Source: Methylobacterium bullatum (lineage in GTDB: Bacteria; Pseudomonadota; Alphaproteobacteria; Rhizobiales; Beijerinckiaceae). From it: a stretch of DNA of 64,000 nucleotides. Within the stretch, counting starts at the first letter, position 1. Every line of letters begins with the position of its first letter. Under the pieces are notes generated by a model that was given only the letters and a program-made list of their open reading frames with translations, did not search any database and was not told where the DNA came from. Made by a program: the position numbers and the translations under genes. This document shows, one piece after another, positions 24,813-47,777 of the stretch. The stretch spans positions 1,586,001 to 1,650,000 of the forward strand of contig LR743504.1 of assembly GCA_902712845.1 (NCBI GenBank). Direction: 5' to 3'.

Positions 24813-24854
24813 GATGGTATTCTCCTAGTTCGCTGGGGTTGGATGGGAGCGGTG

Positions 24855-26954: not shown

Positions 26955-27023
26955 GCCGCTCTCCTAACAGAGTGGTGGGGTCAGGCTCGGCTGGGGAGCT
27001 TCCACCTTCCCGCCGAGCCAATT

Positions 27024-27267: not shown

Positions 27268-27353
27268 ATTAGTGAGTGATTTGAGGGGTTTATAAGCGCC
27301 AGTTTGGTGGTGCTGGCAAACGTGATATTGCTGCCCTATGTCTTGTTGCAGAC

Positions 27354-28464: not shown

Positions 28465-29087
28465 TTATCGACAGCGCCTACGTCAATCCAGCTGACCAAC
28501 TCGCTAATTTTTGGCCACAACTGCAGCAGGGCGATATTGTTGACAATATTCCTTTCACTCTTGCGGATCTGTCAAAATTAGGCCTAGTAAGTGATCAAAA
28601 AACCTCGGGAGTAGATGTGTCTTTATCGGCTATCCCTGCCGAAGCACAACTGATAGCTGCCCAATTTGAGATACTTCCAGGAATAATAGTCTCTCAAACC
28701 TGTGATTTAGAGCGATGCGACAGGCCCATAATGATTGCGCCGTTGAGGGCCTATAGCTACCTTTACAAAACTAAAACGATAGGTTCGAAAGCATTTTTTG
28801 ATCATATTAAGCAGCTTGCAAATCCTGGAAAGTTTCCCGTTGGTTTCCCAATGCCGCCGCTTGTTTCCCTGAATTTCAGCTTGGATTACACAATTGCTGA
28901 TCTTCATATGATAACAACGCTGGCTCCCGCAAGCCGGAATGCTTTGATTTACCGAAGAAAAGCTCGCCTTGGACCAGACTTACTGTCCTTATTTCAAGAA
29001 AGAGTTGCAAATTTCTTTGGTCGTGTTGCGGCCCCGGAGGGTATATATTTCAGTGAGAATCACATTAGAGAGCAATTTGCAGTTTAG
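28461..29087 (+). CDS. Cargo operon gene 3: 'QGDIV...SQTCDLER' family protein
   Basis: 208 residues, AT-rich, overlapping gene 2 (ATGA). It contains 'LQQGDIVDNIPFTL' and 'LPGIIVSQTCDLERCDRPIMIAPL', a combination I recall from scattered proteins in mobile and defence-like loci, with Cys and Asp in a conserved 'SQTCD' turn. That could be catalytic or metal-binding, but no reaction is known to me. It ends 59 bases before the convergent integrase stop. Confidence 0.55.
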   Translation: MIIDSAYVNPADQLANFWPQLQQGDIVDNIPFTLADLSKLGLVSDQKTSGVDVSLSAIPAEAQLIAAQFEILPGIIVSQTCDLERCDRPIMIAPLRAYSYLYKTKTIGSKAFFDHIKQLANPGKFPVGFPMPPLVSLNFSLDYTIADLHMITTLAPASRNALIYRRKARLGPDLLSLFQERVANFFGRVAAPEGIYFSENHIREQFAV

Positions 29088-29145
29088 ACATACTATTTAT
29101 TGAATTTTTTGTAAATAATCATTCAAAAATTGACTATGAAAATGC

Positions 29146-32119: not shown

Positions 32120-34114
32120 GTGAGCATGGTCCTCCGGCAAGGCACGTCCTTCTCCACTCCCTCCGTTACTCAGGTATCGACGATGGCTCTCGCGAAGAAA
32201 TCCGCCCTTCATACCCTGCCTGCCTCGGTCGCCATCCGGGAGGACAGGCCTTCCGTTACCGGTCGGTCGCACCTCGTCGCCGAGGCCGAGAAGCGCAAGG
32301 CCCGGACGTTCGCGCGCCAGCAGAAGGCCGCCGAGCGGATCGCCTCGGCGACCGCCGAACTCTCCAGCGGGATCGCCGAAGCCGCCGCGGCGGCCGAGGA
32401 ACTGCGCAAGGCCTCCGAGCAGATCGGCGTCGGTGCCGAGGAGGCGGCGGGCGCCGCGCAGGAGACCATGAAGGCCATCAATCAAGGGGGGGCCCTCATC
32501 CAGGCGGCCAAGGAGAACGCCAGCGCCGCCCTGACCAAGACGCAGGCCCTGTCCGGACTCATCGTCGACACCGCCGCGCAGATCGGCGCCTCCGTCGCGG
32601 CGATCGCCAAGGCCTCCGAGCGTCAGGAGGCATCGGTCAAGCTGGTCGAGGAACTCGACCGGCAGGCCAGCGCCATCGGCGAGATCGTCAAGGCCGTCGC
32701 CCGCATCGCCGACCAGACGAACCTGCTCGCACTCAATGCGGCCATCGAGGCGGCTCGTGCGGGGCAGCACGGGAAAGGGTTCGCCGTGGTGGCCGACGAG
32801 GTACGCACCCTCGCCGAGACCAGCGAGAAATCGGCCCGCGACATCCAGGAACTGGTGGCGCAGATCCAGGCCGACGTGAAGATCGCCGCCGACGGCATCA
32901 ACAACTCGGCGGTGTCGGCCCGCTCCGAGGCCGAGAAGGGCCGCGTGGTCACGGCTCAGCTCGAGCGCATTCGTGCCGACATGGCCGAGATCATGACGGG
33001 CTGTGACGACATCGCCCGCGCTTCCGACGAATCCGCCGTGGCGTCCGTCGAGGCCCAGAAGGGGGCGGAGATCATCGCCGCCGCGGCCGAGGAGCAGAGC
33101 GCGGCCTGTCAGGAAACCGGCAAGATGGTGGAGCAGCAGACCACCGCGCTCACCCAGAGCGAGCAGGCCGCCCAGGAATTGTCCGGTCTCGCCGAGGAGC
33201 TGAAGAACAGCACGAATATCGGCAAGAGCGCGGAAGAGGTCGCCTCCGCCGCGGAGGAACTGTCGAGCGCGGTGGAGGAGATCAACCGCGCCGGAGCGCA
33301 AGTCACCATCGCGCTGGACCAGATCACCAAGGGCGCGCAGCAGCAATCCGCGGCCACCCAGCAATCCTCCGCCGCCATCGCCCAGATCGAGCGCCGGGCG
33401 CAGGTGAACCAGTCCCTCGCCGGCACCGCCGTGGAGAAGGCGCAGGTCATTTCCGATCTGCTCGCGGAGAACAAGGCAATGGTCGATGCGATGGTCGACG
33501 GCCTCGGGCGGTCCGTCGGCGCCGGCCGCGCGAGCCGCGACCAGATCGCCGCCCTCGAACAGGTCAGCCGGCGGATCGACAAGATCGTCGACGCGATCAC
33601 CACGGTCTCGATCCAGACCAACATGCTGGCGGTGAACGGCTCCGTCGAGGCGGCCCGGGCCGGCGAGTTCGGTAAGGGGTTCGCGGTCGTCTCGACGGAT
33701 ATCCGCAACCTCGCGCGGGATTCCGCCGAGAACGCCGACCGGATCAAGGACACCGTCAAGACCATCCAGGACACCATCGCCTTCGTCCGGGGCGATCTCC
33801 AGGAGATCGCCGAAGGTGCGGCCGCCGAGGTGGAGAAGAGCGGCGCCATCACCCGGAACCTCGACTCCGTGACCAAGGTCATGACCGAGGTGCTGGCCGG
33901 CAACAGGGAAATCCTGAGCGGTTCGGACGGGATCGTCCGCATGGTCCGGGAGATCCAGACGGCCATCGAGCAGGTCGCCGCCGCGGCGCAGCAGGCCGCG
34001 CGGACCTCGGGGGAAGCCGGCAGGGCGGCCAGCGAGCAGGCCAAGGGTGCCGAGCAGCTCGCCGCGGCGATCGAGGAGATCGCCTCCCTCGCCGACGAAC
34101 TCCAGGCCGCCTGA
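32120..34114 (+). CDS. Soluble methyl-accepting chemotaxis protein with two signalling tips
   Basis: 664 residues (a start at 32183, [12 protein letters not shown], is an equal candidate). No membrane segment. Almost all coiled coil, rich in Ala and Glu. Two separate receptor tips: [20 protein letters not shown] (about 196-215) with [13 protein letters not shown], and [20 protein letters not shown] (about 496-515) with [13 protein letters not shown]. The first is canonical, the second diverged. No sensory domain is recognisable, so input may come from partners. It leads the che cluster and probably forms a cytoplasmic array with the triple CheW and CheA. Confidence 0.88.
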
Positions 34115-34145
34115 GCCGACCGCATCGAGAGCGAAGGACAGATCC

Positions 34146-35744
34146 ATGGCAAGCGCAGTCGCTCGGGCGGTGCACACGCTCGAGGCCGAATTCACGTCGG
34201 ACGCGGGACAGTCGATCCCGCGTCCGGAGCAGGAGACGGCCCGCGCCGAAGCCCGCCAGTTCGTGATCTTCCACGTCGAGACGGAGATGTTCGCCGTCTC
34301 GCTCGCCGAGGTGAAGGAGATCATCCGGGTTCCGGAGGTGGTCCGGGTGCCCCTCAGCCCCCCCTCGCTGCTGGGATTGGCCAACCTGCGCGGTACGGTG
34401 CTCCCGGTGCTGAACCTGCGGGACGTCTTCGCCTTCCCGCCCGCCCTTCACGATGACGCCACGCGGGTCGTGGTGCTCGATCAGGGTAGCCCGATCGGCC
34501 TCGTGGTCGACCGGATGGCCAACGTCGTCACCGTGGACGCCGACCGGATCGAGCCCACCTCGGCGATCGAGGGGACGATCGACACCGATCTCCTGACCGG
34601 AATGATCAAGACGAATGACGGCCGGTCGCTGGTGATGATCCTCGATGCGGGCCAGCTCATCCGCCGCGAATTCAGCCGGATCTCGGCCAGGGGCCAAACG
34701 GGTGCCGGCGCGGCCCAGACCGGCGCGACGGATGCGCCGACGGCGGCGGAACCTCTGGTGGACGAGGATCAGCTCGTCAGCTTCGAGGTGGCGGGGCAGG
34801 AATATGCCTTTCCGATCGAGCGGGTCCAGGAGATCGTCCAGCTCCCCGAGCACGTGTCCCGCGTCCCGAACGCGCCGGCCCACGTGCTCGGCGTGATCAC
34901 CCTGCGCAACCGCCTGCTCCCGCTCGTCTCCCTGCGGGAAATGTTCGGGCTCGAGACGAAGGAATTCACCGAGACCAACAAGGTCGTCGTGGTGTCCCTC
35001 GGCACGAAACCGGGCTTCTCCGCGGGCATCGTAATGGACAGCGTCAAGGAAGTATTGCGCGTCAACCGCAGCCTCGTCGAACCGATGCCGGCTCTCCTCG
35101 CGCAGGATGCGGGCATGGACGACATCCAGGCGATCTGCCGCCTGCAGGACGGGCAGCGTCTCGTTTCGGTCCTCTCGGTGGAGCGGATGTTCGACATCGC
35201 CGAGCTGCGCGCGCTCGTGGCAACGGGGGATGAGAGAATGGCCGCCGAGGAACGACAGGACGTGACCGAAGCTCGGGAGGCGGCCGACGAGGAGCAGTTC
35301 GTCGTGTTCCGGCTGATGGGCGAGGAATACGGTGTGCCGATCGCCGCCGTGCAGGAGATCGTCCGCGTTCCGGAGGAACTCACCCGCATTCCGAAGGCGC
35401 CGCCCTTCGTGGAGGGCGTGATCAACCTGCGGGGCGTGGTCCTGCCGGTGATCGACCAGCGGAGGCGGTTCAACCTGGCCGACATGGAGCGCAACGACCG
35501 GCAGCGGATCATGGTGTTCACCATTCGCGGCGTTCGGACCGGCTTCATCGTCGATTCCGTGTCCGAAGTGATGCGGATATCGGCCGCTGCCATCGGCGAC
35601 GCTCCGGACCTCTCGGACGAGCAGACCCGCCTCATCCGTCGGGTGGCCAACCTCGAGAACCAGAAGCGCATGATCCTGCTCCTCGACACGATGCAACTGC
35701 TGGATACCCAGGAAGCGGCCGCCATTCGGCACTCGACCCGCTGA
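34146..35744 (+). CDS. cheW: Triple-domain CheW scaffold protein
   Basis: Start ATG 34146 (MASAVARAVHTLEAEF), 532 residues. Three CheW domains in tandem, about 38-170, 200-345 and 370-520, each with the 'F.V....(F/Y).(V/F)....V.EI...P' opening and the 'G(L/V).NLRG.VLPV..LR' or equivalent 'GVITLRNRLLPLVSLREMFGL' strand-turn. Ordinary CheW has one domain and bridges receptor and CheA. Three in one chain could tile a ring or link the two tips of the adjacent receptor. It follows the MCP gene after 31 bases. Confidence 0.92.
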   Translation: MASAVARAVHTLEAEFTSDAGQSIPRPEQETARAEARQFVIFHVETEMFAVSLAEVKEIIRVPEVVRVPLSPPSLLGLANLRGTVLPVLNLRDVFAFPPALHDDATRVVVLDQGSPIGLVVDRMANVVTVDADRIEPTSAIEGTIDTDLLTGMIKTNDGRSLVMILDAGQLIRREFSRISARGQTGAGAAQTGATDAPTAAEPLVDEDQLVSFEVAGQEYAFPIERVQEIVQLPEHVSRVPNAPAHVLGVITLRNRLLPLVSLREMFGLETKEFTETNKVVVVSLGTKPGFSAGIVMDSVKEVLRVNRSLVEPMPALLAQDAGMDDIQAICRLQDGQRLVSVLSVERMFDIAELRALVATGDERMAAEERQDVTEAREAADEEQFVVFRLMGEEYGVPIAAVQEIVRVPEELTRIPKAPPFVEGVINLRGVVLPVIDQRRRFNLADMERNDRQRIMVFTIRGVRTGFIVDSVSEVMRISAAAIGDAPDLSDEQTRLIRRVANLENQKRMILLLDTMQLLDTQEAAAIRHSTR

Positions 35745-35768
35745 ACGACGCTCGCGACGCACCGACCG

Positions 35769-36896
35769 ATGAGAGAGAGTGACAAGGGGATGATCAGAGC
35801 GTTGGTTGCCGACGATTCCGCATTGATGCGCCGGCACCTCACCCAACTCCTCGAATCGGCCGGTGGCTTCGTGGTGCAGACCGCCCGCAACGGTGTCGAG
35901 GTTCTCGAAGCGTTGCAGGATTTCGACCCGCACGTGATCACCCTCGACGTCAACATGCCGGAGATGGACGGGATCACCTGCCTCTCGCGGATCATGAGCG
36001 AGGATCCGCGACCGGTGGTCATGGTCTCCTCGCTCACCGAAGAGGGTGCGGAGACGACGCTTCAGGCGCTGAGCCTCGGCGCGGTGGATTTCGTCCAGAA
36101 GCCCGGTGGCACGATCTCCCTGTCGATCGACCGTATCCACCGCGAACTCCTGCTCAAGATCCGCGCCGCTGCGACGACAAAGGTCCGGCGCAGCCGTGGT
36201 CTGCGCGGGCGCCTCGCCAGCCAGCGCCGCCCCTCCGCCCCGCCGCCTCAGGCCGCCCTTTCCTCCTCCGGCCGTCCCGGTCTCGTGCTCGTCGGCGTGT
36301 CGACCGGCGGTCCGGGCGTGCTGGAAGAGTTTCTGTCGCTCTTGCCCGCGGACTTCCCCTGGCCCATCCTGATCGCGCAGCACATGCCGAGCAGTTTCAC
36401 CGGTGTCTTCGCCCGGAGACTGGACGAGGTCTGCGCCCTGTCCGTCGTCGAGGCTTCCCGGCAGATGCCGATCGAGCCCGGCACGGTCTACATCGCCAAA
36501 GGCGATGCCGACCTCGTCGTCACACGCCGCGGCACCGGCTATTCCGCGACACCGCTGCCCCAGAGCGACGCGCATATCTGGCATCCCAGCGTCACCCGCA
36601 TGGTGGAAAGCGCCCTCGCGCTCTTTCCCGCCAACCGCCTGATCGGCGTCCAGCTCACCGGCATGGGCGACGACGGCGCCGACGCCATGGCCCGGCTGAG
36701 GGCCGGCGGCGGATTGACCATCGCGCAGGACGAAGAGACCTGCGTCGTCTTCGGAATGCCGAACGAGCTGATCAAGCGCGGCGGGGCCAGCGTGGTCCTG
36801 CCGAGCGATGAGATCGCCGGTCAGCTCGTCGCTTGGCTCGACGGCGCGTCACCGCGGGCACGGGCGCGGATCGAAGGAGGTCGTTTTGGCGCTTAG
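35769..36896 (+). CDS. cheB: CheB protein-glutamate methylesterase
   Basis: 375 residues; 35790 (MIRALVADDSALMRRHL) may be the true start. The receiver domain has phosphoacceptor Asp in 'HVITLDVNMPEMDGITC'. A Pro/Arg-rich linker follows, then the methylesterase domain with Ser in 'GVSTGGPG', His in 'LIAQHMPSSFT' and Asp in 'TGMGDDGADAM'. It removes methyl groups from receptor Glu residues upon phosphorylation by CheA. Confidence 0.95.
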   Translation: MRESDKGMIRALVADDSALMRRHLTQLLESAGGFVVQTARNGVEVLEALQDFDPHVITLDVNMPEMDGITCLSRIMSEDPRPVVMVSSLTEEGAETTLQALSLGAVDFVQKPGGTISLSIDRIHRELLLKIRAAATTKVRRSRGLRGRLASQRRPSAPPPQAALSSSGRPGLVLVGVSTGGPGVLEEFLSLLPADFPWPILIAQHMPSSFTGVFARRLDEVCALSVVEASRQMPIEPGTVYIAKGDADLVVTRRGTGYSATPLPQSDAHIWHPSVTRMVESALALFPANRLIGVQLTGMGDDGADAMARLRAGGGLTIAQDEETCVVFGMPNELIKRGGASVVLPSDEIAGQLVAWLDGASPRARARIEGGRFGA

Positions 36897-37506
36897 GAAA
36901 CCCGTCCGGCCCCTCGATCCGTCCCTAGACGCGGCGCCCGCCGCGGACATCCACACCCTCACGGCGGCCCTCGCGGCCCCGGAGAGCGCGGAGCGTCGCC
37001 GGGTCGCCCGGGAGCTCGGCGCCTTCCCGGCCGCGGCCTCCCTCCTGTGCGAGCAGCTTTGCCTTGAGCCGGCGGCGAGTGTCCGCGCCGTCATCCTGAC
37101 GTCGCTGATCCGCATCGGGTCCCCGGCCGTCGTCGCGGGACTGCTGCCCCTGCTGCGCAGCGAGAACAGCGGCCTGCGGAACGCCGCCATCGAGGTTCTG
37201 CAGGAGATGCCGGCCGAGGTGGAGCCACATGTGGCGGCCCTCCTGGCGGATCCGGACAGCGATGTCCGCATCCTCACGGTCAACCTCCTGAGTCTGCTGC
37301 CGCATCCGAAGGCTCCCTTCTGGCTGAGCCAGGTCGTGGCGCAGGATCCGCACGTCAATGTCTGCGCGGCCGCCATCGACGGTCTGGCCGAGATCGGCGA
37401 CGCGCAGGCCGTCGCGCCGCTTCGAACCCTTCCCGAGCGCTTTCCAGAGGTTCCCTTCATCCGCTTCGCCGTCGCCGCCGCGTTACGCCGGATCGGAGAC
37501 GCGTAA
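36886..37506 (+). CDS. HEAT-repeat protein of the chemosensory cluster
   Basis: I place the start at TTG 36886: a strong AAGGAGG at 36874-36880 sits 5 bases ahead and the frame overlaps cheB by 11 bases; an ATG at 36808 would overlap by 89. About 206 residues of paired helices with 'PAVVAGLLPLLRSENSGLRNAAIEVLQEM' and 'VNVCAAAIDGLAEIGDAQAVAPLRTL', i.e. HEAT/PBS-lyase-like repeats, about five. It is probably a protein-protein scaffold. Its stop overlaps the cheR start by one base. Confidence 0.85.
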   Translation: MALRKPVRPLDPSLDAAPAADIHTLTAALAAPESAERRRVARELGAFPAAASLLCEQLCLEPAASVRAVILTSLIRIGSPAVVAGLLPLLRSENSGLRNAAIEVLQEMPAEVEPHVAALLADPDSDVRILTVNLLSLLPHPKAPFWLSQVVAQDPHVNVCAAAIDGLAEIGDAQAVAPLRTLPERFPEVPFIRFAVAAALRRIGDA

Positions 37507-38381
37507 TGCCCATGTCCAGCATCCTCACGGCAGCGCCACCGGCGGTTCAGATCACGGAAGAGGAATACGAAAAATTCTACGAGTTCTTCTATCGCCGCAC
37601 CGGGATCTCGTTCACGGGGAAGAAGGAATATTTCGTCGAGAAGCGGCTCCTCGATCGGATCTACAAAACCGGCAGCGATAGTTTCAAGGCGTATTTCACA
37701 CTGCTTCGGTTCCAGGTCTCGGGGGAGGAGCTTCAGCATCTCGTCAACACCATGACGGTGAACGAGACCTACTTCTTTCGCGAAGACTATCAGTTCGACG
37801 CCCTGGTGCAGGGCATCCTTCCGGAGATCGGCCGCACGCGCCGGCCCGGCGAGACGCTGCGCATCTGGTCCATGCCCTGCTCGACGGGGGAGGAGCCGTA
37901 CTCGATCGCGATCCAGATCCTGGAGCACTGGTCGCGGGCCGACGACTTCGCCATCGAGATCTGCGCCTCGGACATCGATTCGCGCGTGCTGATGGAAGCG
38001 CGCCAGGGGATCTACGGCAACCGGGCCCTGCAGCGGCTCTCACCGGAGATCCGCAGGAAGTATTTCCGTGTCCTCGGCGAGGACCGGCACGAGATCCACG
38101 AAGAGCTGCGCAGCTCGATCGAGTTCTCCATGGCCAATATCGCCGATCCCATCCAGATGCGCCGCTATCGTGCGATGGACGTGATCTTCTGTCGTAACAT
38201 GCTGATCTACTTCGACGACGCGTCGAGACGGGCTGCCGTGGAGGCGCTGTACGAGTGCCTCGTGCCGGGCGGCTTCATTTGTCTCGGACATTCCGAGAGC
38301 ATGAGCCGCATGTCGTCGATGTTCCTGCCGCGGAAATTCGGGGACACGATCGTTTATCAGAGGCCGATCGAACATGATTGA
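37506..38381 (+). CDS. cheR: CheR protein-glutamate methyltransferase
   Basis: 291 residues. N-terminal CheR helical domain (EEYEKFYEFFYRRTGISF... 'VNTMTVNETYFFRE'), then the SAM-binding domain 'LRIWSMPCSTGEEPYSIAI', 'ICASDIDSRVLMEARQGIY', 'DVIFCRNMLIYFD' and 'GGFICLGHSES'. It methylates receptor Glu residues, opposing CheB. Confidence 0.95.
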   Translation: MPMSSILTAAPPAVQITEEEYEKFYEFFYRRTGISFTGKKEYFVEKRLLDRIYKTGSDSFKAYFTLLRFQVSGEELQHLVNTMTVNETYFFREDYQFDALVQGILPEIGRTRRPGETLRIWSMPCSTGEEPYSIAIQILEHWSRADDFAIEICASDIDSRVLMEARQGIYGNRALQRLSPEIRRKYFRVLGEDRHEIHEELRSSIEFSMANIADPIQMRRYRAMDVIFCRNMLIYFDDASRRAAVEALYECLVPGGFICLGHSESMSRMSSMFLPRKFGDTIVYQRPIEHD

Positions 38382-38388
38382 GGCGCAC

Positions 38389-38766
38389 ATGCTCGAGAAG
38401 CGAATACTCGTCGTCGAGGACGGCATCACCATGCGCATGTTCTATCAGGACGTGCTCGGCAAGGCCGGCTTTGCAGTGGAGGAGGCGGCGAACGGCGTGG
38501 AAGGGCTGGAGAAGGCCCTGCTGGGTCATTTCGACCTGATGATCGTCGACATCAACATGCCGAAGATGGACGGCTACGAGCTGGTGACGCGCATCCGCCG
38601 CGAACCCTCCCTGCGGGCGATTCCGGTGGTCACCATCAGCACCGAAGCACAGGGCGAGGACGCGACGCGGGCCTACGAAGCCGGCGCCAACTTCTACATC
38701 GTCAAACCCGCCGACCCCGAAAGCCTCGTCGAAATGGCCCGCCTGCTGACCGGAGCGCGGGCATGA
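38389..38766 (+). CDS. Single-domain response regulator (CheY-like)
   Basis: Start MLEKRILVVEDGITMRMF (38389) with GAGG six bases upstream; ATG 38374 inside cheR is also possible. About 125 residues, one receiver: acidic 'VVED', Asp in 'LMIVDINMPKMDGYE', Thr/Ser in 'VVTISTEA', Lys in 'FYIVKPADPESL'. It takes phosphate from CheA; with no flagellar genes near, its output is unclear. The stop overlaps cheA by 4 bases. Confidence 0.93.
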   Translation: MLEKRILVVEDGITMRMFYQDVLGKAGFAVEEAANGVEGLEKALLGHFDLMIVDINMPKMDGYELVTRIRREPSLRAIPVVTISTEAQGEDATRAYEAGANFYIVKPADPESLVEMARLLTGARA

Positions 38767-41393
38767 ACGCATCCCTTCTCGCCCGGTTCATTCCCGAAGC
38801 GCGCGAATTGCTGCAGACCTCCGCGGGCGGGCTCCTGAAGCTCGAGCGCGGCCCCACGGACGAGACGGCCATCAACGAGGTCTTCCGGGCCGTCCATACG
38901 CTGAAGGGCTCATCCGGCCTGTTCGAGGCCGCAGCCCTGACACGCCTCGTCCATGCCGCGGAGGACCTCCTCTGCGCCGTCCGGGCGGAGCAGCTGCAGA
39001 TCGATTCGAGCCTCATCGACATGCTGCTCGACAGTCTCGATCAGATGAGTCTCTGGATCGATCAGCTGGAGGCACGGGCTGAGCTGCCGGCGGATGCCGA
39101 CGGCGTCGCGCACCGGATGTCGATCGCGCTGCGCGGCCGGCTCGGCACGCCGGTGGAGTCCGCGGAGACCATGTCGGAGGCCTCCATGCTGCCGGCCCCT
39201 TCCTCCGTCACCGCTGCGTCTCCGGCGACGCTCGACCGCATGCCCGTCGAGAGCCGCCTCGAAGCGTTCCGCCTCGCCTGCGCAGGCCACGCGATCCACG
39301 CCGTCCGCTACGAGCCCGATCCGGGCTGCTTCTACAACGGCACCGACCCGCTGCAGGCGATCCTGCAGGTTTCCGGGTCGATCGTCCTCGACATCGAGAC
39401 GATCCGACCCTGGGAGCCGCTGGCGGACCTCGATCCCTACCAGTGCAACCTTCGCTTCTCCCTGCTGACCACCGCCACCCAGCTCGAGATCGAGCAGGCG
39501 ATGCGCTACGAGCTGGAGCAGATCGAGGTCGCGCCGGTGCGCGTCCGCGACCTGATCCGCATCGACGGTCAGCCGGGCGACGGACCGATCTGGGACGACT
39601 TCCACGAGGGCGCCTCCGCGCTCCTCGCGGCGGAGAACTATGCCGGCCTGGCCGATGCCGCCGCTTCTCTGCGCGGTGGCGCCGACCCGACGCTCTGGCG
39701 CAGCCATGCCCTCGCCTGGCTGGAGGCGGCCGCCTCGGCCGCGCAACCGGAGCCGGGCCTCGTCGCCTTCCTCGTCGCGACGGTCGGCTCTAGGTCGCTC
39801 ACCCCGCCGACCTCTACCCCGGCCGATTTTGACTCGCGCCAGGCGCTGGCCCGGACCATCCTGATCGACCAGCGTCTGGCGCTCGTCAGCGCGGGCTACG
39901 ACGAGGTTCGCCTCGCCTCGGTGGGAACCATTGTCGGCAACGTCCTGAGCAGCCTCGGCCGCAACGCGCAGCGCGCGGCGTTCCAGACCGCCCTCGACGT
40001 GGCGCGCGAGGCGCGTTCGATCGCGCCGCTGCTCACCGCCATAGCCGCCTTCCTCGGTGACGACGATACGGAGGCCGCGCCGGCCGCCCTTGCCCCCACC
40101 GATCACCGCGCGGAGCCCTCGGTCGCAGCACCGGTCGTCCCAAAACCGGTAGCGACCGCGCAGGAATCGGCGCAGACCGCAAAGGACTCGGCACCGGTCC
40201 CAGTGGATGCGGAAGTCCGGGCGGCGGCGAAGACCCTGAAAGTCGACCAGGCGAAGATCGACCTGCTGATGAATCTCATCGGCGAGCTCGTCGTTTCCAA
40301 GAACGCCCTGCCGTTCCTCGCCAAACGCGCCGAGGAAACCTACGGCTCGCGGGAGATGTCCCGGGAGATCAAGGAGCAATACGCGATCATCGATCGGCTC
40401 GCCCAGGAGATGCAGGGCGCGATCATGCAGGTCCGCATGCTGCCGGTGTCGGACATCTTCGACCGGTTCCCGCGCCTCGTGCGCGACCTCGCACGCAAGC
40501 TCGGCAAGCGGATCGACCTCGTCGTCGAGGGCGGGGATACCGCGGCCGACAAGACCATCATCGAGGCGCTCGGCGATCCACTGCTGCACATCGTCCGCAA
40601 CTCCCTCGATCACGGCATCGAGGGGCCGGACGAGCGTCTCGCGGCGGCCAAGCCGGCGACGGCGCGCCTGCTGCTCAAGGCCCGCCAGGAGACCGACCGG
40701 GTCGTCATCGAGCTCCAGGACGACGGTCGCGGCATCGATCCGGCCAGGATCCGCGCCGTGGCGGTCGCCAAGGGCGTCATCGATCAGGAAGAGGCCGACC
40801 GCCTGTCCGATCAGGAGGCGATCAACCTCATCTACCGTCCCGGCTTCTCGACGGCGCAGGAGATCTCCGACCTGTCCGGCCGCGGGGTCGGCATGGACGT
40901 GGTGCTGACCACGGTGGAGAAGCTCGGCGGCCAGGTCTCCGTGACCTCCCGTCTCGGCGAGGGGACGACGACGAGTCTCTCCATGCCGCTCAGCATGGCG
41001 GTGACCCGGATCATGATGGTGGAGGCCGCCGGCAGCCTCTACGGGGTGCCGATGGACATGATCGTCGAGACGGTGCGCGTCCCGAGAGAGCGCATCCGGA
41101 CGATCAAGAAGGCCGAGACGTTCGTGCTGCGCCAGACCGTCATCCCGCTGATCCGGATGTCGCGCCTGCTGCGGTTGACCGACCGGCCGCAGGACGACGC
41201 GGAAGCCGCGGTGCTTGTCTGCCAGGTGAACGGCCGGCGCGTCGGATTGATCATCGACAACTTCCGCGAAGGCATGGACGTGATCCTGAAGCCGCTCGAG
41301 GGCGTCCTCACCGGCATAGGCGGCTATTCCGGAACGGCCCTCCTCGGCGACGGCCGCGTCCTCCTGGTCCTCGACCTCAAGGAGCTCCTGTGA
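38763..41393 (+). CDS. cheA: CheA histidine kinase
   Basis: 876 residues, longer than the usual 650-700. P1 Hpt with His45 in AVHTLKGSSGL. A long middle (about 110-490) contains a domain beginning 'EAFRLACAGHAIHAVRYEPDPGCFYNGTDPLQAILQ' common in proteobacterial CheA, then Ala/Pro-rich linker. P3 dimer helices from 'VDQAKIDLLMNLIGELVVSKNAL'. P4 ATPase with N-box HIVRNSLDHGIE (about 609), 'DDGRGID' (about 652) and 'GRGVGMDVV'. P5 CheW-like to the end. It phosphorylates itself and then the receivers and CheB. Confidence 0.96.
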   Translation: MNASLLARFIPEARELLQTSAGGLLKLERGPTDETAINEVFRAVHTLKGSSGLFEAAALTRLVHAAEDLLCAVRAEQLQIDSSLIDMLLDSLDQMSLWIDQLEARAELPADADGVAHRMSIALRGRLGTPVESAETMSEASMLPAPSSVTAASPATLDRMPVESRLEAFRLACAGHAIHAVRYEPDPGCFYNGTDPLQAILQVSGSIVLDIETIRPWEPLADLDPYQCNLRFSLLTTATQLEIEQAMRYELEQIEVAPVRVRDLIRIDGQPGDGPIWDDFHEGASALLAAENYAGLADAAASLRGGADPTLWRSHALAWLEAAASAAQPEPGLVAFLVATVGSRSLTPPTSTPADFDSRQALARTILIDQRLALVSAGYDEVRLASVGTIVGNVLSSLGRNAQRAAFQTALDVAREARSIAPLLTAIAAFLGDDDTEAAPAALAPTDHRAEPSVAAPVVPKPVATAQESAQTAKDSAPVPVDAEVRAAAKTLKVDQAKIDLLMNLIGELVVSKNALPFLAKRAEETYGSREMSREIKEQYAIIDRLAQEMQGAIMQVRMLPVSDIFDRFPRLVRDLARKLGKRIDLVVEGGDTAADKTIIEALGDPLLHIVRNSLDHGIEGPDERLAAAKPATARLLLKARQETDRVVIELQDDGRGIDPARIRAVAVAKGVIDQEEADRLSDQEAINLIYRPGFSTAQEISDLSGRGVGMDVVLTTVEKLGGQVSVTSRLGEGTTTSLSMPLSMAVTRIMMVEAAGSLYGVPMDMIVETVRVPRERIRTIKKAETFVLRQTVIPLIRMSRLLRLTDRPQDDAEAAVLVCQVNGRRVGLIIDNFREGMDVILKPLEGVLTGIGGYSGTALLGDGRVLLVLDLKELL

Positions 41394-41644
41394 TGCCGAT
41401 CCGAATCGCGCGCAACGTCGTCCATCTCGAGGGCCATTGCACGGTGGAGGAAGCGCTCACGCTTCTGGAAGCTCTCCGCAAGCCGCGCCAGCCCAAGATC
41501 GTGCTCACCGCATGCCTGGGGATGCACAGCGCCGTCCTTCAGGTCCTCGCCGCCGCGCCGCGCGTCACCATCGCGCCGCCCGCCGATCCGACGCTGGCCG
41601 GCATCGTCATGCCGTTCCTGCAGGCCTCTCGGGCAGCGTCCTGA
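41393..41644 (+). CDS. Small STAS-like protein
   Basis: 84 residues overlapping the cheA stop (TGATG); a GTG at 41390 is also in frame. 'VVHLEGHCTVEEALTLLEAL', 'PKIVLTACLGMHSAVLQVLAAA' gives the beta-alpha alternation of a STAS domain, with Thr-Ala-Cys where a phosphorylatable Ser/Thr would be expected. If correct, it is a link to the STAS proteins of the downstream stressosome genes. Family call by eye. Confidence 0.55.
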   Translation: MPIRIARNVVHLEGHCTVEEALTLLEALRKPRQPKIVLTACLGMHSAVLQVLAAAPRVTIAPPADPTLAGIVMPFLQASRAAS

Positions 41645-41749
41645 AAATGACCCGCGCCCCGCGCGGGCATAGCCTTCACCGAACGGATGCGGCACCCCCG
41701 GCGCCGCGATCCGATACCCCAACGCAAGCATTACACCGAGGAGACTAGG

Positions 41750-42124
41750 ATGGCCGCGACGATCATGATTGTCGACGACTCGCCGACCATGCTGCTGAGC
41801 ATCGAAGGCATTCTGACCAAGGCCGGCCTCACCGTGGTCAAGGCACCGAGCGGCGAGAAGGCCCTGGATACGTTGAAGTCGGGCACCAAGCCCAACCTGC
41901 TCATCACCGACCTCAACATGGGCGAGATGAACGGCATCGACCTGATCCGCAAGGTTCGCAAGCTGCCCGGATTCGCCTTCCTGCCGATCCTGATGTTGAC
42001 CACCGAGTCGCAGCAGGACAAGCGCAACGAGGCGAAATCGGCGGGTGCCACGGGCTGGATCGTCAAGCCGGTGGATTCCGACGGACTGCTCGGCGTGATC
42101 CGCCAGCTCGTTCCCGGAGCGTGA
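41750..42124 (+). CDS. Single-domain response regulator (CheY-like)
   Basis: Start [18 protein letters not shown] (41750) after a good GAGGAG; 124 residues. Receiver with 'IVDDSP', Asp in '[15 protein letters not shown]', Thr in '[10 protein letters not shown]', Lys in '[12 protein letters not shown]'. This is the classic chemotaxis CheY look. It directly precedes a membrane receptor. Confidence 0.94.
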
Positions 42125-42126
42125 CC

Positions 42127-43350
42127 ATGTCGCTTGCGGGTCGAACGCTTTCTCCCAGATGGATCGGCCCGCTCTGCGCAGGGCTCGCTGCCTTGTGCCT
42201 CTCCGCCATCGCCGCCGCGGCCTTCGGGCCGGTGCCCGGCGTGGCCCTGATCGCGGTGGCCGGTTTCGTCATGGTCTGGAGCTCGACCGCGCTGATGAGC
42301 CTGTCGCTGGGTTCGCAACGGACCCCGCCCGCAAAGGACCATCCGGATGTCGGGGCGGCGCCGGAGGCCGACGCGCAGCCGGAACCCGAACCGGTGGCAT
42401 CGGAGCCCCGACTCGACCTGACGGGGGCCCTGGCTGATCATTTCACGGCCTATGACCGACTCTTCGAGCGCGCATCGCAGGACACCGCGTCGGTGACGGA
42501 AGAAACGGAGGCCGCCGCCTTCGACATCATGTCGAGCCTGAAGGCCGTGGACGGCGCGATGACCGATCTCCTGACCTTCCTCGACGTGTCGGGTTCCAAC
42601 GTCCGGGTGATGGAGATCGTCGATCAGACCGATCAGCAGTTGATCGAGAACCGCCGCCTCATCACGGTGTTCCTGGCGCAACGCGACTCGGATATCGAGG
42701 AATCCCAGCGGCGCCTCGAAATTCTCGACGACACCACCGAGGAACTGACCCGCGCCATCGACGGGGTTCAGACGATCGCCCGTCAGACCAACCTGCTCGC
42801 TCTGAACGCGACGATCGAGGCGGCCCGCGCGGGCGAGGCCGGTCGCGGTTTCGCGGTGGTGGCCGCCGAGGTCAAGCAACTCTCCCATGCCTCGGCAGCC
42901 ACCGCGACCCGGATCGGCAAGGGCCTCGCCAGCCTCCGCGAATCGATCCGGGACAACTTCGCCACTCTGGTCAGCCAGCGCATCGAAGGGGAGCGGGGCG
43001 AGCTCATGAAGATCTCGTCGGCCATCTCGGGCCTGACGGAGAACATGGAACGCCTGGTCTCTCACCAGAGGGACACGCTGGTGAAAGTCCAGGAAGAGAG
43101 CGTCCGCATCGCCGAACCCGTCGTCCAGCTCATCGGATCGATCCAGTTCCAGGACGTCACGCGACAGCGGCTGCAGCATCTCGAGGGAATCTTCGCGGCG
43201 GCCCGTAGGAATCTCGATGCAATGGATCTTTCCAATCCCCTCCCCGAGACATGGCCGGATGCTGTCGCCTTTGCCGAACTGGCCTTGGCGGAAGGCCCGT
43301 CTCCGCCCCGGTCGAGACTGAAACGCGCGAACGACATCGAGCTGTTCTGA
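42127..43350 (+). CDS. Membrane-bound methyl-accepting chemotaxis protein
   Basis: About 407 residues from ATG 42127 (a GTG at 42121 is possible). Two membrane helices lie close together (about 15-33 and 37-60), so there is almost no periplasmic loop and sensing is probably cytoplasmic or within the membrane. A Pro/Glu linker, then the signalling hairpin with [20 protein letters not shown] and [12 protein letters not shown]. The end carries '[14 protein letters not shown]', typical of receptors with short membrane anchors. Confidence 0.92.
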
Positions 43351-43359
43351 TCGGGTCCG

Positions 43360-43382
43360 GCAAAACCGGCCGCCGGTTTTGC
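43360..43382 (+). terminator. Hairpin at the end of the chemosensory operon
   Basis: Perfect 10-bp stem GCAAAACCGG/CCGGTTTTGC (43360-43369 with 43373-43382) with a 3-base loop, starting 10 bases after the receptor stop. The T's lie within the stem and there is no U-tract after it, so termination may be partial. Confidence 0.55.
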
Positions 43383-43399
43383 GTAACAAGACCTGCGTC

Positions 43400-43441
43400 A
43401 TTTCAAAGACCTAAGCGGGGCGAAGCGTTGGCCGGCCAATG
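43400..43441. repeat. Left inverted repeat flanking a response-regulator gene
   Basis: 42 bases that match the reverse complement of 43934-43975 at 34 of 42 positions. It contains the perfect palindrome TTGGCCGGCCAA. Confidence 0.7.
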
Positions 43442-43546
43442 CGGACCTGCTTAGAATCCCGCCGCCCAGTGGCGCGGGCAGACGGCGATGAGATCCACCC
43501 ATCGCCGTCTCATATCAGCGGATACATGCGGTGAGAGTATCGATCC

Positions 43547-43924
43547 ATGGCCTCGATCCTACTGACGGACGACGTCGCCGTTGTCCGGATGACGATCCGG
43601 CGCTTTCTCGAACGGGGCGGTCACACGGTCAGGGACTGTGACTCCGCCGAAGCGGCGGAACAGATCCTGTCCAGCCAGTCGTTTGACATCCTCGTCACCG
43701 ACCTGTGGATGCCCGGCCGGGACGGCCTGACGCTGATCGCCTGGGTGAAAGCCCAGCACCGCGGCATGCCCATCATCGCGGTCACCGGGGGGGCTCCACG
43801 GACGCCGCAGGTCTTCTCCATGGAGGAGGCGGCTCGGGCCGGTGCCGACCGCGTGCTCATGAAACCCGTCGGCATGCAGGAACTCCTGTCCACCGTCACC
43901 GATCTCATCGGATCGCGCGTCTAG
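43547..43924 (+). CDS. Single-domain response regulator flanked by inverted repeats
   Basis: 125 residues: 'LLTDDVAVVRMTIRRFLERGGHTV', Asp in 'ILVTDLWMPGRDGLT', Thr in 'IIAVTGGAP', Lys in 'RVLMKPVGMQEL'. Unlike its neighbours it is a lone transcription unit (about 195 bases upstream gap, about 115 downstream) and both flanks carry a 42-bp inverted repeat. It may connect the che and rsb halves. Confidence 0.92.
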   Translation: MASILLTDDVAVVRMTIRRFLERGGHTVRDCDSAEAAEQILSSQSFDILVTDLWMPGRDGLTLIAWVKAQHRGMPIIAVTGGAPRTPQVFSMEEAARAGADRVLMKPVGMQELLSTVTDLIGSRV

Positions 43925-43933
43925 ACAGGTTGG

Positions 43934-43975
43934 CATTGGCAAGCCAACGCTTCACTTCACTTAGGCCTTTGAAGT
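43934..43975. repeat. Right inverted repeat flanking a response-regulator gene
   Basis: Mate of 43400-43441 (81% identical when inverted). Its inner hairpin is GCATTGGC-AA-GCCAACGC. A further hairpin CGGGTTT/AAACCCG follows at about 43980-44002, ahead of the rsbR-like gene. Confidence 0.7.
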
Positions 43976-44041
43976 GTAGCGGGTTTTGAGATGCGAAACC
44001 CGTGACCACTTTTGCTGAACCTGCTTAGGAAAGCGGAACGC

Positions 44042-44884
44042 ATGCACAGTATCGGACAGATCATCCTCGACAATCGCGGGGCGGTCCTGGATGCATGGCT
44101 CGAACGCCTGCCCAGCGGCGCGGCGGGGGCGCGGCCGGCCACGTTCCAGTTGCTCAAGATCGAACTGGGGATGCTGGTCGACAAGCTCGTCTCCTATTTC
44201 AACGCGGGCGACCACGATCTCGGCGGCCCCCTCTTCAAGCCCGTCGAAGACCAGGCCGCCACGATCAGCGCCGCGTGTGCCCGCGACGGGCTGACCCCCC
44301 TGGAGACCGCGACCCTCATCATGTCGCTGAAGACCATCACGCGCGACCTTCTCGATCGGGAGGTTGGCGGCGACCGGGACGGGATGCGGATCGCGGTGGA
44401 TGCGGTGGTGGACAGGCTGGCGCTCGTCACCTTCGCGGCTTTCGTCGAAACGCGGGAGGACATCATCCAGCGTCAGGGCCGGGCACTCCTGGACATGGCG
44501 ACCCCGGCTCTTCCGATCTGGCGCCACATCATCCTGATGCCTTTGGTGGGAATCATCGACACCCAGCGGGCCAGACAGGTGATGGAGTGGCTGCTGGAGG
44601 CCCTCGCCCGGGAGGAAGCGCATATCGCGATCCTCGACGTCACGGGGGTGCCGTTGATCGATAGCCGCGTCGCTCTGCACCTGACCAAGACCGTCGAGGC
44701 AGCCCGCCTGCTCGGCTCCCAGGTGATCGTCACCGGCATCAGCCCGGACGCGGCGCAGACCCTGGTCAAGCTCGATGTCGATCTGTCCAGCATGATCACC
44801 AGGGGCACCCTGCAGGTGGGCTTGGCGGAAGCTTTCCGGCTGCTCGCCCAGCGGAACCAGGGCACGAGCGGGAGCCCCTTCTGA
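44042..44884 (+). CDS. rsbR: RsbR-like stressosome protein (N-terminal RsbRD domain plus STAS)
   Basis: Preferred start MHSIGQIILDNRGAVLDAWLE (44042; AGGAA upstream), about 280 residues. A helical N-terminal domain, then a STAS domain from about 150: 'PLVGIIDTQRARQVMEWLLEAL', 'IAILDVTGVPLIDSRVALHLTKTVEAARLLGSQVIVTGISP', with the conserved phospho-site Thr in DVTGVP. RsbR and RsbS build the stressosome shell. The stop overlaps rsbS by one base. Confidence 0.9.
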   Translation: MHSIGQIILDNRGAVLDAWLERLPSGAAGARPATFQLLKIELGMLVDKLVSYFNAGDHDLGGPLFKPVEDQAATISAACARDGLTPLETATLIMSLKTITRDLLDREVGGDRDGMRIAVDAVVDRLALVTFAAFVETREDIIQRQGRALLDMATPALPIWRHIILMPLVGIIDTQRARQVMEWLLEALAREEAHIAILDVTGVPLIDSRVALHLTKTVEAARLLGSQVIVTGISPDAAQTLVKLDVDLSSMITRGTLQVGLAEAFRLLAQRNQGTSGSPF

Positions 44885-45273
44885 TGCGCGTTCCCATTCT
44901 CCGGCTCGGCCGGGTCCTTCTGACCTCGCTGCCATCCGATCTCACGGATCAGCAGGTGATGGACCTCCAGATCGACGCCCTCGCGCTGATCCAGGCGGGC
45001 AAGGCCGACGGACTCGTCATCGACATCACCGCGGCGGACGTCGTCGACTCGTACATGGCCCGAATGCTCTCCGAAACGGCGAAGATGGTGACGATCATGG
45101 GCGGCATCGCCGTCCTGGCCGGCATGCGGCCCGCCGTGGCTCTGACCCTGGTCGAGATGGGCCAGAACATGATCCACATGGAGACCGCATTCGATCTCGA
45201 GGGCGGGGTCGCGAAAGTCGCTCGGCTGGTCGCGTCCCGCGGAGGTCGCCATGACGAAGTCCCCACGGTCTGA
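44884..45273 (+). CDS. rsbS: RsbS-like STAS protein
   Basis: 129 residues of a single STAS domain: 'VPILRLGRVLLTSLPSDLTDQQVMDLQIDAL', then 'LVIDITAADVVDSYMARMLSETAKM' with the Ser (DSYMAR) that RsbT phosphorylates, and 'AVLAGMRPAVALTLVEMG'. It is the stressosome core component that holds RsbT. It overlaps rsbT by 23 bases. Confidence 0.93.
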   Translation: MRVPILRLGRVLLTSLPSDLTDQQVMDLQIDALALIQAGKADGLVIDITAADVVDSYMARMLSETAKMVTIMGGIAVLAGMRPAVALTLVEMGQNMIHMETAFDLEGGVAKVARLVASRGGRHDEVPTV

Positions 45274-45697
45274 CCCGCTCGATGCGGTGACGCGGGACGA
45301 AACGGTTTGCGTCATTCCGATCCGGGTCCAGGAAGACATCCTCCGCGCCCGGCAATCGAGCCGCGGCGCGGCTGCGGCGATCGGATTCGGCACCGTCGAC
45401 CAGACCCGCCTCGCCACCGTCGTGTCCGAACTGGCGCGCAACATCCTGACCTATGCCGGCACCGGCGAATGCCGCGTGGTGAGCCGCCTGACGCCCGTGG
45501 AGCGGAGCATTGTGATCGAGATGGAGGATAGCGGGCCGGGAATCGACGACATCGCCGATGCGATGATGCCCGGATACTCCACCGGAGGGGGACTCGGCCT
45601 CGGCCTCCCCGCCGTGCACAAGCTGATGGACCACATGTCGGTGGAGACGCGGCCGGGACGCACCCTGATCCAAGCCTCGATGGCGAGGCGCCGATGA
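45251..45697 (+). CDS. rsbT: RsbT-like serine kinase / switch protein
   Basis: 148 residues of the GHKL (HATPase) type: 'RQSSRGAAAAIGFGTVDQTRLATVVSELARNILTYA' (N-box), 'EDSGPGIDDI', 'GGGLGLGLPAVHKLMD'. RsbT phosphorylates RsbR and RsbS and is then released to act on a partner. No RsbU phosphatase follows, so its target may be the histidine kinase at 46737 or the next ATPase. It overlaps the next gene by 4 bases. Confidence 0.93.
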   Translation: MTKSPRSDPLDAVTRDETVCVIPIRVQEDILRARQSSRGAAAAIGFGTVDQTRLATVVSELARNILTYAGTGECRVVSRLTPVERSIVIEMEDSGPGIDDIADAMMPGYSTGGGLGLGLPAVHKLMDHMSVETRPGRTLIQASMARRR

Positions 45698-46107
45698 CGC
45701 CGGAGCCGGACAGGCTCGACGTCAGGGTGACGTCCGAGATGGATGTCGTCGAGGCGCGCCAGAAGGCGCGTCTCCTCGCCCTGCGTCACGGGTTCGGGAC
45801 CGTGCGGGCGCACGGGATCGCGACTGCGGTCTCCGAGCTCGGCATGAACCTCGTGCTCCACACCGCGCGGGGCGGTCTGATCCACCTCACGGCACAGGGC
45901 GAGGCGGGAGCGGCCGTGGTCGAGGTGGTGGCCGAGGACGAGGGGCCGGGCATCTCCGATATCGCCCTCGCCATGCAGGACGGGTATTCGACCCGCGGCG
46001 GATTGGGCTGCGGTCTGCCCGGGACCCGTCGCCTGATGGACGAGTTCTCGATCACCTCCGAGGTCGGGCGCGGGACGCGCATCGTCTGCGCGATGCGGCG
46101 GCCATGA
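45694..46107 (+). CDS. Second RsbT-like GHKL ATPase
   Basis: 137 residues, a diverged duplicate of rsbT: 'ARQKARLLALRHGFGTVRAHGIATAVSELGMNLVLHT' (N-box with ELGMN and H), 'EDEGPGISDIALAMQDGYSTRGGLGCGLPGTRRLMDEF'. All ATP-binding motifs are present. Possibly an anti-sigma/anti-anti-sigma-type kinase or a competitor of RsbT on the stressosome. Its stop (46105-46107) lies inside the first unit of the 14-bp tandem repeat. Confidence 0.9.
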   Translation: MTPEPDRLDVRVTSEMDVVEARQKARLLALRHGFGTVRAHGIATAVSELGMNLVLHTARGGLIHLTAQGEAGAAVVEVVAEDEGPGISDIALAMQDGYSTRGGLGCGLPGTRRLMDEFSITSEVGRGTRIVCAMRRP

Positions 46108-46151
46108 GGACGCTGCCATGAGGACGCTGCCATGAGGACGCTGCCATGAGG
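46102..46151 (+). repeat. 14-bp tandem repeat forming an ATGA ladder of minicistrons
   Basis: Unit CCATGAGGACGCTG, three full copies (46102, 46116, 46130) plus CCATGAGG. ATGs at 46104, 46118 and 46132 each open a five-codon frame (M-R-T-L-P) ending in TGA that overlaps the next ATG; the fourth ATG (46146) starts the phosphatase gene. The first ATG overlaps the stop of the upstream ATPase gene. Confidence 0.9.
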
Positions 46152-46730
46152 GAATGGCCGAGGATCGCGGCCGCCTCACGGGTCTATCCCGGGGAGACCG
46201 TCTGCGGCGATCAGGTCTCCTGGTGGCGCGAGGGGCGGGCGACCCTGGCTTGTATCGCCGATGGGCTCGGCCACGGACCGGATGCCCATCGCGCCGCCCA
46301 GACCCTGCTCGCCCTGGTGGAGGGCCAGCCGGAGACCGACCTGGCGCAGCGGCTCGTGACCGCCGACCGGGCGATGCGCCACACCCGCGGCGCCGCCGCG
46401 GCCCTCGTCCGCATCGATCCCGGTACGAGGATCGTCACGGTGGCCGCGGTGGGAAACATCCAGGGGGCTCTGTTCGGCACGCGCACGCGCCGCTTCGACG
46501 GAACGCCAGGGATCGTGGGGGCGGGGCTCCGTCACCTCAAACCCCTCGACCTGCCCTTCGCGTGCGAAGATCTCCTGATCCTTTGGACCGACGGACTCCG
46601 GCCCGTGGATCTCGGGACCGACCCGACGGCGCCGCACGACGATCCGGAGCGGCTCGCCGCGCAGCTGATGGCCAGTCTCGGACGCCAGAGTGACGATTGC
46701 GCCGTCCTGTGCATCACCTTCGGCGAGTGA
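46146..46730 (+). CDS. rsbX: RsbX-like PP2C-type phosphatase
   Basis: 194 residues: 'CGDQVSWWREGRATLACIADGLGHGPDAHRAAQ', 'VGNIQGALFGTRTRRF', 'GIVGAGL', 'LLILWTDGLRP' and 'QSDDCAVLCITF', the SpoIIE/RsbX pattern with metal-binding Asp and Gly positions (CGD, ADGLGHG, TDG, DD). RsbX resets the stressosome by dephosphorylating RsbR/RsbS. Its start is the last ATG of the repeat ladder. Confidence 0.9.
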   Translation: MREWPRIAAASRVYPGETVCGDQVSWWREGRATLACIADGLGHGPDAHRAAQTLLALVEGQPETDLAQRLVTADRAMRHTRGAAAALVRIDPGTRIVTVAAVGNIQGALFGTRTRRFDGTPGIVGAGLRHLKPLDLPFACEDLLILWTDGLRPVDLGTDPTAPHDDPERLAAQLMASLGRQSDDCAVLCITFGE

Positions 46731-46736
46731 GACGGC

Positions 46737-47777
46737 ATGAAGGCGCTGCTCCAGCGATACACTACGGGCATGGCCAGCCACGTGGCGACCTGCGCCGAGG
46801 CATCGCTCCTCGACATCGAAGAGCTCGGCCGCCACGCGATCACGGAGGATTTCGCCCTCGACGAGATCGCCGGTCTGCACGAGGGCGCGGCCCTCGCCCT
46901 GGCCGACCAGGGGGTGCCGATCAACGAGCCGGAGATCATCCGGCGCATGTCGGCCTGCCTCAGCGCGCTGATGATCTCGTCGACCATCGCCTATCGCACC
47001 AAGATCGACCTGCTCGAGCGGCAGCGGCAGCAGGAGCGGGACAGGACCGAGCGGGACCGCCAGCGCCTCGAAACCCTCGGGCAGCTCATGGCCTCGGTGG
47101 CGCACGAACTCAACAACCTGCTCCAGCCCGTCTGCGGCATGACCGAGATCATGCTCCTCGACCTCGCGAAGAAGCCGCCCGAACGGGCCGATATCGAGGT
47201 CGTGGAATCCTGCGCCAAGCAGGCGGTCACCGTCATCCAGGGCATCCTCAGCTATGTCCGGCGCGAGACGATCGCGCCGCAGAGCCTGGCGTTCGGTGCC
47301 GCCGTGACGACGGCCTGCGACTTCATCCAGCCCGCCCTGCGTCAGCCGCTCGACGTGGCGATCCGGGATCATGAATCCCGGGTTCTCGCTTTGCCGGGAG
47401 AATTGACCCAGATCCTGCTGAACCTCGTTCAAAATTCGCTGCAGGCCGGGGCGACGCAGATCTCGGTCGAGGTGGATCGCATTTACCGTGACCGGCCGGA
47501 CGCCGCGGGGGTGCTCGGCGGACAGAGGCCGTGGATGCGGCTCGCGGTCATGGACAACGGCCACGGCATGTCGGCGGACGTGGTGGCACACGCGGCCGAT
47601 CCGTACTTCACCACGAAAGCGAGCGGGAAAGGGACCGGCCTCGGGCTCGCGATCGTCAAGGGGATCATTCTGGACTGGTCGGCCACCATGCAGATCACAT
47701 CGCAACCGGGGCACGGCACGACCGTCTCGATCGAACTCCCGATCTCATCCGGCCGACCTTTTCCCGCAGCCGTGTGA
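46737..47777 (+). CDS. Sensor histidine kinase with RsbU_N-like front end
   Basis: 346 residues, soluble. The N-terminal helical part (about 1-85: 'MKALLQRYTTGMASHVA...SLLDIEELGRHAITEDFALDEIAGLHEGAAL') has the look of the RsbU N-terminal domain that RsbT grips. A coiled coil follows, then HisKA with 'LMASVAHELNNLLQPVCGM' (phospho-His in AHELNN) and HATPase with 'NLVQNSLQAG', 'MDNGHGM', 'GKGTGLGLAIVKG'. It may be the stressosome's output target in place of RsbU. Last gene of the cluster; no cognate regulator follows. Confidence 0.88.
   Translation: MKALLQRYTTGMASHVATCAEASLLDIEELGRHAITEDFALDEIAGLHEGAALALADQGVPINEPEIIRRMSACLSALMISSTIAYRTKIDLLERQRQQERDRTERDRQRLETLGQLMASVAHELNNLLQPVCGMTEIMLLDLAKKPPERADIEVVESCAKQAVTVIQGILSYVRRETIAPQSLAFGAAVTTACDFIQPALRQPLDVAIRDHESRVLALPGELTQILLNLVQNSLQAGATQISVEVDRIYRDRPDAAGVLGGQRPWMRLAVMDNGHGMSADVVAHAADPYFTTKASGKGTGLGLAIVKGIILDWSATMQITSQPGHGTTVSIELPISSGRPFPAAV

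Follow-up and report, generated by a model that had tools for sequence, protein, structure and literature searches.

Methylobacterium bullatum carries the genes for a chemosensory array (che) and those for a stressosome (rsb) in a single run, and the question raised by this locus is whether the two form one signalling system or are two systems that have become neighbours. The locus lies in a 64,000-nucleotide stretch of contig LR743504.1, referred to here as the window, and Pfam searches confirmed that all the genes named in an earlier note on this sequence are present at 32120-47777 in the order given there, every one of them on the + strand. The che half, defined as MCP1 to MCP2, encodes an MCP, a triple CheW, REC-CheB, a HEAT protein, CheR, a receiver, Hpt-CheA, a STAS-like ORF, another receiver and a second MCP; the rsb half, defined as RECc to the kinase, encodes a receiver, RsbR, RsbS, two HATPase proteins, a SpoIIE-type phosphatase and a HisKA-HATPase kinase. 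Active-site motifs were checked in CheA, CheB, CheR, RsbR, RsbS, RsbT1, RsbT2, RsbX, the receivers and the kinase, and all were intact. The likely true starts of MCP1 (ATG at 32183), CheW (ATG at 34146) and RsbR (ATG at 44042) are slightly off those of the corresponding ORFs. The features are as follows.

32183..34114, + strand: MCP1, cytoplasmic chemoreceptor with two tandem MCP signalling regions (Pfam MCPsignal, two stretches)
34146..35744, + strand: CheW protein with three CheW domains (Pfam CheW, three stretches, 5.9e-102)
35769..36896, + strand: CheB, REC plus methylesterase (Pfam)
36808..37506, + strand: HEAT-repeat protein (Pfam HEAT_2, 2.6e-19)
37506..38381, + strand: CheR methyltransferase (Pfam)
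38374..38766, + strand: RECa, single-domain receiver of the che half (Pfam; found in che-only loci)
38763..41393, + strand: CheA, with Hpt, dimerisation, ATPase and CheW domains and an unknown middle region of about 350 aa (Pfam)
41393..41644, + strand: small STAS-fold protein, ancestral che gene (AlphaFold, Foldseek; found in che-only loci)
41687..42124, + strand: RECb, single-domain receiver of the che half, likely start 41750 (Pfam; found in che-only loci)
42121..43350, + strand: MCP2, chemoreceptor with N-terminal TM segments (Pfam, TM segments)
43351..43546, no strand: gap between the che and rsb halves, with strong inverted repeats (83-147 bp elsewhere)
43547..43924, + strand: RECc, single-domain receiver, first gene of the rsb half (Pfam; adjoins rsbR in relatives)
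44042..44884, + strand: RsbR, RsbRD_N plus STAS (Pfam)
44884..45273, + strand: RsbS, STAS, with the conserved phosphosite motif VDSYM (Pfam, motif)
45251..45697, + strand: RsbT1, switch kinase (Pfam; ATP-binding motifs)
45694..46107, + strand: RsbT2, second RsbT-like ATPase (Pfam)
46146..46730, + strand: RsbX-like PP2C phosphatase (Pfam SpoIIE, 6e-11)
46737..47777, + strand: kinase (HK), with RsbU_N-like helical domain, linker helix, HisKA and HATPase (Pfam, profile, model)

The first half contains the elements of a Che system, namely MCP, CheW, CheA with Hpt and ATPase domains, receivers, CheR and CheB, and CheA has both the Hpt residue His45 and the ATPase motifs. MCP1, whose start was set by alignment with relatives, has no TM segment; it aligns along its full length in the relatives read, and two signalling regions in one soluble chain (32183-34114) make an unusual receptor layout. 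This array is not the sole che system in these bacteria, since at least one CheA (E<=1e-60) is carried by all 37 congeners sampled, and it is distinct from the genus-wide CheA system; G000 has a second CheA, 34% identical. The small STAS-like gene noticed earlier inside this half was found at 41393..41644. It had no Pfam match, while its AlphaFold model (pLDDT 88.7) showed a STAS fold, with RsbV as the best Foldseek match (probability 1.00, E 0.004). The idea that it could bridge the two halves found no support: che-only loci carry the gene as well, both in Methylobacterium and in alphaproteobacteria further removed, and the position of the phosphosite is occupied by Ser, Thr or Ala. As a substrate of the stressosome it was rejected, because the gene belongs to the ancestral che set and the residue at its phosphosite position varies. 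A ParA-like ATPase gene lies 3' of the STAS-fold gene in 9 of 11 loci of the joined type (e.g. L034:11865-12660) and was also present in both che-only Methylobacterium loci read; it is missing from the window (41644-41687) and from M. bullatum LMG 24788. One of those che-only loci, that of G036, encodes after MCP2, at the position of the rsb half, a small protein that by eye resembles a HisKA_2/HWE-type kinase (L058:14586-15479).

The second half constitutes an RSTX module, with RsbR (sensor plus STAS), RsbS, RsbT and RsbX encoded together. The VDSYM motif is invariant within the RsbS subfamily, and the phosphosite motifs IDTQ and IDSRV are present in RsbR. When RsbT1 was compared with the PDB only SpoIIAB chains were matched, a result that leaves RsbT, RsbW and SpoIIAB indistinguishable, so that its assignment is based on operon order and likeness among RSTX loci. 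The second RsbT-like ATPase is an ordinary feature of such loci, and in many others it is fused to RsbX. The RsbU, RsbV, RsbW and SigB genes of a sigma-B operon are not found downstream, where the kinase closes the block and the next large gene is of the RTX/cadherin type. Among RSTX loci of alphaproteobacteria analyzed with Pfam, the product of the gene following RsbX mostly joins an RsbT-like ATPase domain to kinase domains of the HisKA or HisKA_2/HWE type (the latter in L112, L113, L114, L119, L120 and L122), some loci end in a kinase without the RsbT-like domain, and one ends in a GGDEF-EAL protein. The PhyR general stress response is driven by kinases of the HisKA_2/HWE class, and a possible link from stressosome to PhyR would be worth testing. 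A search of plasmids with RsbS returned 98 records, all below 60% identity, and Methylobacterium was absent among the organism groups listed.

As to the surroundings of the block, the absence of adjacent flagellar or sigma-factor genes pointed out in the earlier note held for the subset of neighbouring ORFs scanned, the nearest being an integrase on the left and an RTX/cadherin-type gene on the right. The latter (48622-57759), directly 3' of the block, encodes a protein of 3045 aa in which 21 DUF5122 beta-propeller repeats are combined with RTX repeats and with cadherin-like and bacterial Ig domains. On the other side, the region 22005-30390 encodes a DUF1376 protein, a DnaB-type helicase and a tyrosine integrase, and is probably a remnant of a prophage or integrative element beside the block.

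The co-occurrence of CheA with RsbR-S-T in other genomes, put forward earlier as a check, was then a matter of distribution. In a first sample of 37 congeners, 7 genomes had a close CheA orthologue and 6 a close RsbT1 orthologue; 5 had both, and in all five the two loci were adjacent. Under independence this co-occurrence has p = 0.0003, a value that is indicative only, the genomes being related. Extended to 111 Methylobacterium species, the kinase was found in 11 and CheA in 19 (one of them a fragment), and in the 10 genomes with both, CheA ends 5.3-6.0 kb upstream of the kinase on the same contig. The two halves are thus not always apart in relatives, as 10 of the 11 kinase-bearing congeners have them joined. 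The same gene order was observed in M. brachiatum, M. mesophilicum, M. pseudosasicola, J-077, J-048, J-030, E-066 and Leaf91, for which the loci fetched begin within the che half. Either half can also be found alone: nine congeners have CheA without the kinase, and the two of these loci that were read (G012, G036) have no rsb genes, while WSM2598 and G035 have R-S-T1-T2-X alone, without RECc and the kinase. In two more distant alphaproteobacteria the che and rsb loci are 1.3 Mb apart (G775) or on separate contigs (G674), and about 35 other proteobacterial RSTX loci, sampled at the level of order, class and phylum, had no CheA or CheW within the up to 10 kb covered on each side. The pairing is real, conserved, not due to chance and limited to one Methylobacterium group, of which the joined form looks like an innovation, since elsewhere the halves are normally apart.

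With these data, we consider it moderately probable that two complete sensory modules, neighbours since the ancestor of a single Methylobacterium group, have stayed together, the stressosome having a two-component output; the joining probably happened once. A different reading is that both halves travel on one transferable island and are co-inherited without working together, which we regard as possible but rather unlikely. The flanks of relatives do not match those of the window, a phage integrase lies 1.7 kb upstream of the block, and each half looks like a transcription unit of its own, all of which would fit such an island; against it, the integrase near the block is known from the window only, and gene order is kept exactly, free of unrelated insertions, in species with block proteins of only 63-96% identity. 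The block aligns over 13.5-14.8 of 16 kb with four other species, while near it not a single base of the window flanks aligned in any relative tested, short repeats excepted, from which it follows that the block is kept as a unit and not just as part of a shared chromosomal context. Pairwise identities of the two halves are correlated (r 0.98) and three splits are shared between their trees. Strict co-descent of the halves within the M. mesophilicum-type group was nevertheless not borne out, given that several supported splits differ.

The situation in M. bullatum LMG 24788 bears on the separability of the halves. RsbS matches place the window in Methylobacterium with this strain as the nearest. 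Its RsbS is 100% identical to that of the window, and the part of the block shared by both, from the STAS-fold gene through the kinase, has 96% DNA identity. An IS3-type element adjoins the block within cheA, its transposase pair lying against the cheA 3' end (L062:75-1426), and the remainder of the close CheA was not found in this draft assembly, which breaks at the element. Most of the che half thus appears to be gone from this strain, with the rsb half retained, and the halves would be separable; a missed contig is a possible alternative cause, because the draft breaks at that point. A genuine loss would mean that the rsb half can be kept in the absence of the array, for a while at least.

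MCP2 and RECc are separated by 83-196 bp holding hairpins, so that the che and rsb halves are likely two adjacent transcription units; scans for sigma-70 promoters and terminators gave results at or under chance and leave the transcription units undecided. Strong inverted repeats surround RECc (43351-43546, 43925-44041) in the window and in M. bullatum, and in other species there is hardly any RECc-rsbR gap, while the hairpin between MCP2 and RECc is weakly conserved. EcfG-type promoters (GGAAC-N-CGTT) were discarded, with 3 matches against 2.2 expected in the window and the sole one in the block lying inside the RECc gene. The exchange of signals with CheA receivers proposed earlier is not supported by the way in which the receivers are distributed: RECa and RECb occur in che-only loci and belong to the che half, while RECc, whose stop overlaps or abuts rsbR in 9 relatives, begins the rsb unit, is found only together with the kinase and is absent from both che-only and rsb-only loci. 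The simplest assignment would couple RECa and RECb to CheA and RECc to the kinase, and the chances that RECc is indeed the partner receiver of the kinase seem to us slightly better than even.

Convergence of array and stressosome at the biochemical level, for example if CheA and the kinase phosphorylated or dephosphorylated a shared receiver (RECc, RECa or RECb), is in our opinion unlikely. The conservation of the block in 10 species with differing flanks would agree with it, and there is a precedent in Rhodospirillum centenum, where CheA3 acts on the kinase CheS3 (PMC3868531), but the receivers partition by half, the kinase has no receiver domain of its own, and in LMG 24788 the rsb genes seem to have outlived the che half. 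Nothing in the sequence indicates direct contact between the two modules, and crosstalk of the stressosome with CheA at the biochemical level is doubtful. The stronger version, an integrated hub in which a methylation-adapting cytoplasmic array and the stressosome jointly set the phosphorylation of one receiver, we hold to be improbable; if true, a behavioural array would tune the stress response, or the reverse.

Returning to the reading of two neighbouring modules, its two-component output depends on the front end of the kinase, which the earlier note had likened to RsbU_N. The window copy alone matches this domain weakly (E 0.014, 15.9 bits), under the Pfam curated cut-off, but the likeness is upheld by its relatives: RsbU_N was matched in 5 of 5 kinase orthologues scanned (best 4.3e-7), and a profile of 11 orthologues had RsbU structures as its top four matches in the PDB. 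Within the 37 congeners, RsbU_N occurs in 5, exactly the joined-locus genomes and only in the kinase gene, and among 14 control genomes only in B. subtilis. The N-terminus is modelled (pLDDT 95.9) as helices 2-18, 21-36 and 41-57 followed by a long helix, 65-111, towards HisKA, a predicted layout that matches the one in which RsbT orders the RsbU linker through RsbU_N in B. subtilis (PMC12143880). Foldseek gave nothing significant for this region and listed KaiA and globins besides RsbU, and is kept as compatible with the domain. The RsbT contact E24 of RsbU aligns with E21 of the kinase, invariant in 11 of 11 sequences, and the position of Y28, required for RsbT binding in B. subtilis according to the same source, is Leu or Val. 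It is likely, judging from these sequence comparisons, that RsbT acts on the kinase via this domain, which agrees with what was originally suggested. That RsbT1 acts instead on the second ATPase or the phosphatase, the kinase being an unrelated downstream gene, is very improbable, since the R-S-T-T2-X arrangement without kinase in WSM2598-type genomes and the unconserved Y28 speak for it but the RsbU_N domain on the kinase and the exact co-occurrence of this domain with the joined locus speak against it.

The first module would then be an array with a cytoplasmic tandem-tip receptor, a membrane receptor, CheW x3, CheA, CheB, CheR, the HEAT protein, two receivers and the STAS-fold protein, including in relatives the ParA ATPase. 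In the second, a core of RsbR and RsbS would hold RsbT; upon stress, RsbT would phosphorylate RsbR and RsbS and leave the core, and freed RsbT may bind RsbU_N of the kinase and rigidify the linker helix, turning the kinase on. The activated kinase would phosphorylate RECc, and RsbX would reset the RsbR/RsbS core. Both modules would probably be expressed as adjacent units serving one behaviour. Points that count against this reading are the replaced Y28, the Foldseek outcome, the scans that did not settle the transcription units, the apparent separability of the halves in LMG 24788 and a sequence that gives no sign of direct contact between the modules. The control exerted by stressosomes outside Bacillales is largely open, and this block offers a compact conserved case with a probable target kinase and a probable partner receiver, along with a natural series of genomes having both halves, either half or a broken half; the step from RsbT to the kinase and any link with the array can be directly tested in plant-associated bacteria that grow in the laboratory.

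The suggestion that the combined system may be undescribed holds in part. No mention of a joined che-stressosome locus was found in the open-access literature, subscription literature being outside the search; the wiring from RsbT to a kinase is already published, as PMC9237108 and PMC12143880 describe RsbU_N-bearing kinases in RSTX operons from alpha-, beta- and gammaproteobacteria. It is also general, because kinases follow RsbX in RSTX loci and RsbU_N kinases occur elsewhere; RsbU_N kinases or cyclases were found in two alphaproteobacteria and one proteobacterium of our phylum sample. The RSTX modules of Gram-negatives (Heinz et al., 2022, PMC9237108; PMC12143880) resemble the block in having RsbR-RsbS-RsbT-RsbX followed by a signalling protein, possibly with RsbU_N and including kinases, although those sources, in the parts available, describe no adjoining chemosensory array, and the block differs from them in T2 as a gene of its own before X, in RsbRD_N instead of a globin on RsbR and in the leading single receiver. 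The stressosomes of Vibrio vulnificus and V. brasiliensis likewise have RSTX beside two-component genes and no sigma-B cascade, but their RsbR carries a haem globin; in V. vulnificus RsbU_N was not detected in the downstream proteins and an interaction between VvRsbT and VvD1 was not seen (PMC9237108), and in V. brasiliensis a CheY-like gene was noted, not an array (PMC4976288). With the RsbRST-RsbU-SigB pathway of Bacillus subtilis the block shares RsbR, RsbS, RsbT, RsbX and RsbU_N as the target of RsbT, but its output is a kinase rather than a PP2C phosphatase, and rsbV, rsbW and sigB are absent. The Che3 cluster of R. centenum (PMC3868531) is an alphaproteobacterial che cluster of the non-motility type, to which the che half may also belong, and like the block it includes a second kinase and a single-domain receiver; it has no stressosome, and the hybrid kinase CheS3 carries receivers of its own, of which CheA3 phosphorylates one, only CheS3~P phosphorylating CheY3. 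Set against these systems, the block joins known modules in a new combination, which is real and is conserved within one clade.
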